In this document: positions 2,184 through 2,701 of the stretch, one piece after another
Numbering within the stretch: the stretch's first letter is position 1
Layout of the letters: each line of letters opens with the position of its first letter
Assembly: GCF_014696105.1 (NCBI RefSeq)
Contig: NZ_JACJPO010000027.1
Coordinates: forward strand, 124,001 to 188,000
Origin: Microcoleus sp. FACHB-1515
GTDB lineage: Bacteria > Cyanobacteriota > Cyanobacteriia > Elainellales > Elainellaceae
Reading direction: 5' to 3'
DNA: 64,000 nt
Position numbers and translations under genes: made by a program
Notes under the pieces: model-generated
Database searches by the model: none
Told to the model about the DNA's origin: nothing
The model's input: only the letters and a program-made list of their open reading frames with translations

Positions 2184-2669
2184 TTAGTTGTGAGCGGCTT
2201 GCTCTTGAGCGGCGATTTCTGGTGTGCTGTTGCTGTGGCTCAGTTCAGCCAAATTTAGCTTCACAACGGTGTTGCGAGCTTCGGTCACTTTCGGCAGCGT
2301 CAGGGTCAAAATGCCGTCTTTGTAATCCGCTTTGACCTGATCGTTAATGACCGCAACAGGCAGCGTAATCACGCGCTGGAATTTGCCATAGCGAAATTCG
2401 CTGTTCAGCAAATTGTTTTCAGACTGCGACGCTTGACGATATTCACCAACGATCGCAACCGCTTCACGGCTGACTTGAATATCGATATCTTTGGCATCTA
2501 AACCTGGAAGTTGTGCCCGCAGTTCGATCGCATCTCCCATGTCGCGCAGTTCGATCGCAGGCGACCAAGCAGACTCATTGGTTGCAAAACTTAGCTCATC
2601 AAACACGCGATCAAATTGGCGACGTAGCGTTTCCATTTCGCGCAAGGGTTGCCAGTAACGAACTAACAT
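2184..2669 (-). CDS. Small heat-shock protein, Hsp20/alpha-crystallin family
   Basis: A 161-residue ATP-independent holdase chaperone. The N-terminus (RYWQPLREMETL) matches cyanobacterial HspA/Hsp17-type proteins. The alpha-crystallin domain spans about residues 40-135 and contains the hallmark DGILTLTLPK. ATG at 2669 is preferred over the in-frame GTG at 2678, because AGAGGTG sits 8 nt before the ATG and family members start at this point. The leader can fold so that this ribosome site is paired (see the thermometer feature), so heat induction at translation is likely. Confidence 0.93.
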   Translation of the reverse strand: MLVRYWQPLREMETLRRQFDRVFDELSFATNESAWSPAIELRDMGDAIELRAQLPGLDAKDIDIQVSREAVAIVGEYRQASQSENNLLNSEFRYGKFQRVITLPVAVINDQVKADYKDGILTLTLPKVTEARNTVVKLNLAELSHSNSTPEIAAQEQAAHN

Positions 2670-2672
2670 TTT

Positions 2673-2701
2673 GTTCACCTCTTATTCGATGAATGGTTCA
2701 C
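2673..2701 (-). promoter_or_regulatory. Candidate RNA thermometer in the hsp20 5' leader
   Basis: On the transcript, ACC-AUUC (loop AUC) pairs with GAAU-GGU across an asymmetric AAGA internal loop. Outer GU/AC pairs enclose a GA/GA mismatch. The GAGGUG ribosome site is inside this structure, 4 nt from the ATG. A short hairpin with an asymmetric internal loop at the ribosome site is the design known for Hsp17 of Synechocystis. Folding was done by eye. Confidence 0.55.

Follow-up and report, generated by a model that had tools for sequence, protein, structure and literature searches.

Background

The names hspA and hsp17 denote one and the same gene of Synechocystis. In the published outline, the leader of hsp17 from Synechocystis PCC 6803 acts as an RNA thermometer composed of a UCCU/AGGA helix, a 1x3 internal loop and a 10-nt apical loop, with an apparent Tm of 46°C (PMC4477652). 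Other cyanobacteria are likewise described as having small heat-shock genes under the control of RNA thermometers (PMC4477652, PMC4166951); among those of Anabaena variabilis and Thermosynechococcus are a ROSE-like element, a blocker of the start codon and an element with a complex fold (PMC4166951). Among the literature matches listed, no thermometer of the lineage considered here was found by title or abstract opening. We analyzed the leader of an hsp20 gene of Microcoleus sp. FACHB-1515, a Leptolyngbya-like cyanobacterium, located within a stretch of 64,000 nt (hereafter: the window, whose numbering is used throughout), for which an initial annotation had proposed temperature-controlled translation by a hairpin of the Synechocystis hsp17 design. 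This leader may work like the hsp17 hairpin, but by the features tested it is no copy of it.

The hsp20 gene and its neighborhood

The gene (2184-2669, minus strand) encodes a protein of 161 aa (MLVRYWQP...) and starts with the ATG at 2669-2667. The identity of its product, given correctly in the initial annotation, was confirmed by a Pfam search, which reported the HSP20 domain (PF00011; E-value 7.3e-19; 68.2 bits vs. the cut-off of 20.8), and the protein is 91% identical to its counterpart in the genome of the sister species. The genome contains two hsp20 genes above the Pfam cut-off, the second of which is referred to below as L002. The sequence at 2701-2673 (minus) reads as initially given, with GAGGUG (2676-2681, minus) as a clear ribosome site ahead of the ATG at 2669, from which it is separated by 6 nt rather than by the 4 nt claimed. 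A GTG at 2678 is in frame and falls within GAGGUG; it is unlikely to be the start codon.

A dciA-like ORF (PF05258) ends at 2786, just upstream of hsp20. Downstream, a strong intrinsic terminator (2140-2162, minus; a 10-pair stem followed by a T run) is positioned between hsp20 and the converging gene of a DUF255/thioredoxin-like protein (100-2136, plus), just beyond the stop codon of the latter; the terminator scan found 2 such sites vs. 1.3 expected from shuffled sequences.

Putative promoter and 5' end

A sigma-70 scan revealed no minus-strand promoter in 2090-2800. The sequence CATGAT (2719-2724, minus), which has the form CANNAT in relatives, is a putative -10 hexamer, and if this G(R)CANNAT-type block is taken as the -10 element, the transcript would start at 2712 and carry a predicted 5' untranslated leader of 43 nt (2670-2712, minus), compared with about 46 nt in the published outline of Synechocystis hsp17. 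The block is present in 27 of the 48 orthologue leaders listed, and leader lengths counted from it (n=27) range from 28 to 66 nt, with 21/27 within 36-45 nt and 42 nt as the commonest value (7 leaders).

A 16-base element, GTCGAGTTCTCCTGAC (2747-2762, minus), is located 36 nt before the -10 block and, judged by its letters, resembles a K-box or Rre1-type promoter site; a second block further upstream, GTTGGGAAAACTCTAC (2770-2785, minus), looks alike by eye in many relatives. The K-box to which we refer is that of cyanobacterial groE genes. The name appears in PMC5381637. Rre1 is reported to be an activator of chaperone genes in PCC 7942, with GTNCGGK as the proposed site (PMC13421787). The elements of the relatives are GTNCRG-N4-CCNNAC-like, and those of the orthologues L042 and L045 contain GTNCGGK, whereas the copy in the window, GTCGAGT, departs from this proposed site at two positions and is a putative site.

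Orthologues were defined as proteins starting with M-x-R-Y or M-x-x-R-Y, which gave 52 distinct leaders; before counting, loci were left out if their start failed the regular expression or if too few upstream bases were available, as were identical or near-identical leaders. Although the pattern permitted spacings of 34-62, a 16-base GTACAGTTCTCCTSAC-like element was located upstream of the CANNAT block at a distance of 35-37 nt in 23/52 leaders, that of the window included; the sister species and L002 fail this strict pattern and are similar by eye. The combination of element and CANNAT block (2762-2719, minus, in the window) recurs among L006-L023, L040-L061, L131, L190 and L193, not in all of them. 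A ribosome site was detected by pattern in 44/52 leaders, and none was recognizable in the remaining eight (L002, L006, L007, L008, L010, L013, L018 and L021), several of which end in CCU immediately before the ATG.

This distribution speaks for an alternative to a thermometer, namely that any heat control of hsp20 is transcriptional, via the conserved K-box/Rre1-type promoter, and that the G-rich ribosome site folds into the leader hairpin only incidentally. Six of the 23 leaders with the strict promoter have no recognizable ribosome site, so heat-type transcription appears to be kept where a ribosome-site thermometer cannot exist; relatives without the hairpin that keep heat control were what the initial annotation had named as evidence against itself, and as far as sequences tell they are found in part. 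L002 likewise combines a promoter that is similar by eye with the lack of a ribosome site, and the reported activation of chaperone genes by Rre1 points in the same direction. On the other hand, the published outlines describe both kinds of control in Synechocystis, transcriptional for hspA (PMC2758279) and at the RNA level for hsp17 (PMC4477652). Taking into account the comparative evidence presented below, which argues against it, we give this alternative somewhat less than an even chance.

Predicted folds of the leader

The hairpin initially drawn around the ribosome site (2677-2697, minus) consists of an ACC/GGU helix, an AUUC/GAAU cap and an AAGA internal loop. Its pairs can be drawn, but its key pair has a predicted probability of at most 0.014 in all five leader contexts between 15 and 50°C. 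The fold as drawn has a calculated energy of -2.6 kcal/mol at 25°C and -1.0 at 37°C, which is close to zero by 45°C; an extension by tandem G.A pairs would bring it to -6.2 kcal/mol at 25°C and -3.4 at 37°C. Since its geometry also differs from that of the published hairpin, as far as the description of the latter goes, we regard this exact model, a close copy of Synechocystis hsp17, as very improbable.

The ribosome site can nonetheless pair locally, as the initial annotation had supposed in general terms. The best local hairpin, which we consider the candidate thermometer stem (2674-2693, minus), joins UUCAUC (2693-2688) and GGUGAA (2679-2674) across an 8-base loop, GAAUAAGA (2687-2680), with a calculated energy of -7.4 kcal/mol at 25°C and -5.2 at 37°C. 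Between 25 and 45°C its predicted probability decreases from 0.94 to 0.53 (context -43..+3 relative to the start codon), from 0.59 to 0.27 (-43..+15) or from 0.14 to 0.09 (-43..+30). Full opening of GAGGUG is predicted to rise from 0.6% to 20% over this range (-43..+3). When 2710-2660 was folded, the check that the initial annotation had proposed, the bases of AGGUG were unpaired with a mean probability of 0.25 at 25°C, rising to 0.43 at 45°C; the predicted site is mostly closed at the lower temperature, as envisaged, and opens in part on heating.

The 5' arm of this hairpin is also captured by a competing hairpin, UCGA-AA-GAGUG-AAC-CAUUC-A-UCGA (2686-2709, minus), whose predicted probability between 25 and 45°C increases from 0.01 to 0.23 (-43..+3) or from 0.28 to 0.56 (-43..+15). 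With 30 coding bases included, the competing hairpin is dominant already at 25°C (0.83), and the ribosome site is partly paired by coding bases. A further competitor of UUCAUC/GGUGAA is a long helix formed with the 5' end. Pairing of the start codon (CAU/AUG) has a predicted probability of 0.31 at 25°C for -43..+15 and of about zero for -43..+30.

The conclusions from folding are soft, because the outcome varies with the predicted 5' end: the energy required at 25°C to open the ribosome site (context to +20) is 0.9 kcal/mol for a transcript starting at -40, 3.1 for -43 and 6.6 for -46. The percentile of the window leader among its shuffles is 0.42-0.59 for starts at -41 and -43 with up to 30 coding bases (0.42-0.52 for the 43-nt leader), 0.85-0.93 for a start at -45, and 0.97-0.99 with 50 coding bases. 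Likewise, the share of 1000 shuffles that are as closed as the leader or more so is 0.86-0.90 for a start at -40, 0.11-0.12 for -46 (to +3 and +20), 0.009 for -46..+40, 0.14 for -52..+20 and 0.06 for -60..+40.

Resemblance to known thermometers

Set against the published description of Synechocystis hsp17, the leader is alike in being short, in preceding a small heat-shock gene and in having a ribosome site that is predicted to pair in a stem with a large apical loop, of 8 nt compared with 10 nt in Synechocystis. One of the predicted folds (-43..+15) has one-sided unpaired bases that separate the ribosome-site stem from the start-codon stem, a split that the Synechocystis description also has. 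In contrast, the helix is UUCAUC/GGUGAA instead of UCCU/AGGA, and in the favored folds the stem with the ribosome site either lacks an internal loop or, as in the fold just mentioned, has 0x5 and 0x3 bulges. The match to the hsp17 design claimed initially is a loose one: both the UCCU/AGGA helix and the 1x3 internal loop are lacking, and whether the start codon is paired depends on the context. The thermometers of Anabaena variabilis and Thermosynechococcus, compared by their summary (PMC4166951), are alike in presenting diverse, gene-specific leader structures before small heat-shock genes; the leader of a Thermosynechococcus relative (L098) served as no more than a yardstick for the folding. 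Searches for known elements revealed no Rfam family at gathering score across the window and no ROSE element at E-values up to 10 in 2560-2820. The characteristic feature of FourU thermometers is absent as well, with no UUUU in the 43-nt leader and no Rfam match.

Comparison with shuffled sequences and the genomic background

The stability of the fold of -42..+15 is not unusual (z = -0.24; 75 of 200 shuffles as good). The predicted opening of the ribosome site between 25 and 45°C is 8.7-fold for hsp20 vs. a median of 7.3-fold for 85 ORFs of the same genome that are preceded by a Shine-Dalgarno sequence, an uncurated background picked by a simple rule and possibly including hsp20 itself. A stronger response is predicted for 41% of these ORFs, and at 25°C the site is more closed in 59%. 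In 10/85 of them the ribosome site takes part in a 6-bp helix with a loop of 4-10 nt, and in 15/85 in a helix of at least 5 bp. In a comparison with 58 ORFs that assumes a start at -46, hsp20 falls among the most closed 7% (4/58 at least as closed). By itself, the predicted folding does not set hsp20 apart from many ordinary genes, and this ordinary accessibility and temperature response agree with control by transcription only.

The ensemble opening energies of 38 orthologue leaders show no excess over shuffles either (mean percentile 0.47; KS p 0.88; 0.47 for the leader in the window). The known ibpA thermometer of Escherichia coli is, however, missed by the same test (0.04-0.30, with the leader cut at -75), and for this reason we give it little weight and do not regard it as decisive. 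The folding of a short leader alone is thus a poor guide, as the same measure misses a known thermometer.

Conservation of the leader and ribosome-site hairpins in orthologues

Between the two species of the genus that were compared, 45 of the 46 positions of the leader (-46..-1) are identical, compared with 45/66 fourfold-degenerate sites (Fisher p 5.5e-5 for leader vs. fourfold) and 59/69 positions of -116..-47. The single change keeps a U-A pair as U-G. Being more conserved than fourfold sites, the leader appears to be under constraint, whatever its reason, which speaks against purely transcriptional control. With only two species compared, the constrained positions are inseparable, and with one other species of the genus and one differing base the window leader itself yields no covariation score. 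The leader DNA was matched in six of 388 sampled genomes of the class: its own, that of the sister species, and four in which the match spans 22-39 bases lying upstream of the hairpin.

The near-complete conservation extends over the whole of -46..-1, beyond the paired arms, as would be expected if the leader were another kind of RNA element (a protein or small-RNA site, or an mRNA-stability leader) with pairing as a secondary feature. A precedent is E. coli IbpA, which is reported to repress its own translation via its 5' untranslated region (PMC10474464). Nonetheless, we consider such an element rather unlikely here: the constrained positions cannot be told apart from the two species, no partner is known, and the sole Rfam match over the leader, with no family at gathering score, is a weak one to a nematode snoRNA (E-value 4.1).

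The orthologue group is enriched in local hairpins that involve the ribosome site. Among the 44 leaders with a ribosome site, those without having been dropped from these tests, helices that have at least 5 bp and a loop of 4-10 nt were found in a weighted 11.1 of 22 clusters vs. 5.1 expected from shuffles (z 3.3), or vs. 6.5 if 3-12 nt loops are allowed (again 11.1; z 2.4), and 6-bp helices in 6.9 vs. 2.1 (z 3.6); these z values are flattering, because the test was conceived after many of these leaders had been inspected. The first enrichment set (MxxRY) overlaps the leaders that prompted the test, and the later set added L190, L192 and L193, all of one genus, two of them with the helix and one without. 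Loops of up to 30 nt gave no clear excess (15/22 vs. 12.6 for 5 bp; 7 vs. 7.1 for 6 bp), and local ribosome-site helices are not raised in other hsp20 groups (4/39 vs. 9.4 expected). The excess in the orthologue group argues against the hairpin being incidental.

Fischerella/Nostoc-type relatives have a helix in the register of the window (UUAUC, an 8-base loop and GGUGA). In 15 distinct rows, 89.3% of the cells of this 5-bp helix are paired, compared with 33-59% when the register is slid, and its covariation score is reached by 21/500 shuffles; without the two rows of the window's genus, these values are 87.7% and 53/500. The second pair occurs as U-G, U-A, C-G (in the window's genus only) and G-C (in Fischerella thermalis). 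Among the 13 distinct rows of relatives, four (L157, identical to L160; L158; L161; L046) do not form an intact helix. Altogether, temperature-controlled translation, as initially proposed, draws comparative support from leader conservation, the hairpin excess and weak covariation, while its predicted thermal response is ordinary for the genome.

Two other groups of leaders deserve mention. In Fischerella thermalis, the hsp20 leader (L052:1469-1496 vs. L049:1469-1496) exhibits a compensatory change from U-G to G-C in the 5-bp ribosome-site helix, and it is perhaps a better candidate for a thermometer test than the leader in the window. In a Leptolyngbya-like group (L040, L042, L044 and L045), a common stretch near CUUGAUCCAAAAGGAGAU precedes the ATG, UUCUU can pair with AAGGA in three of the four, and the leader of L040 has a predicted stem of 11 bp.

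Proposed mode of action and implications

Our best explanation is that hsp20 mRNA would start near 2712 with a leader of about 43 nt, in which the ribosome site at low temperature would be mostly closed in the UUCAUC/GGUGAA hairpin. Upon warming this hairpin would melt, its 5' arm being also drawn into the competing upstream hairpin, and translation would rise gradually, on top of a presumed transcriptional heat induction. Such a weak, dimmer-like thermometer acting in addition to transcription is plausible from sequence comparison and modeling, and we tentatively rate it about as likely as an incidental fold.

A variant, which we consider improbable, is a two-state thermosensor that refolds rather than simply melts. 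Here, a ribosome-site look-alike, GAGUGAAC (2703-2696, compared with GAGGUGAAC at 2681-2673), and the true site would compete for an overlapping anti-site (CAUUC/UUCAUC, 2695-2688), and warming would transfer the anti-site to the look-alike and thereby free the true ribosome site. A repeat search on the two look-alike stretches found no repeat without gaps, and the likeness therefore rests on reading by eye.

The leader may be, at most, a further weak temperature sensor belonging to a class described before in cyanobacteria. If the gradually melting UUCAUC/GGUGAA hairpin is real, it would add one more lineage-specific RNA thermometer to those of cyanobacterial small heat-shock genes, and it would suggest a rapid gain and replacement of ribosome-site hairpins under a heat-type promoter that persists.
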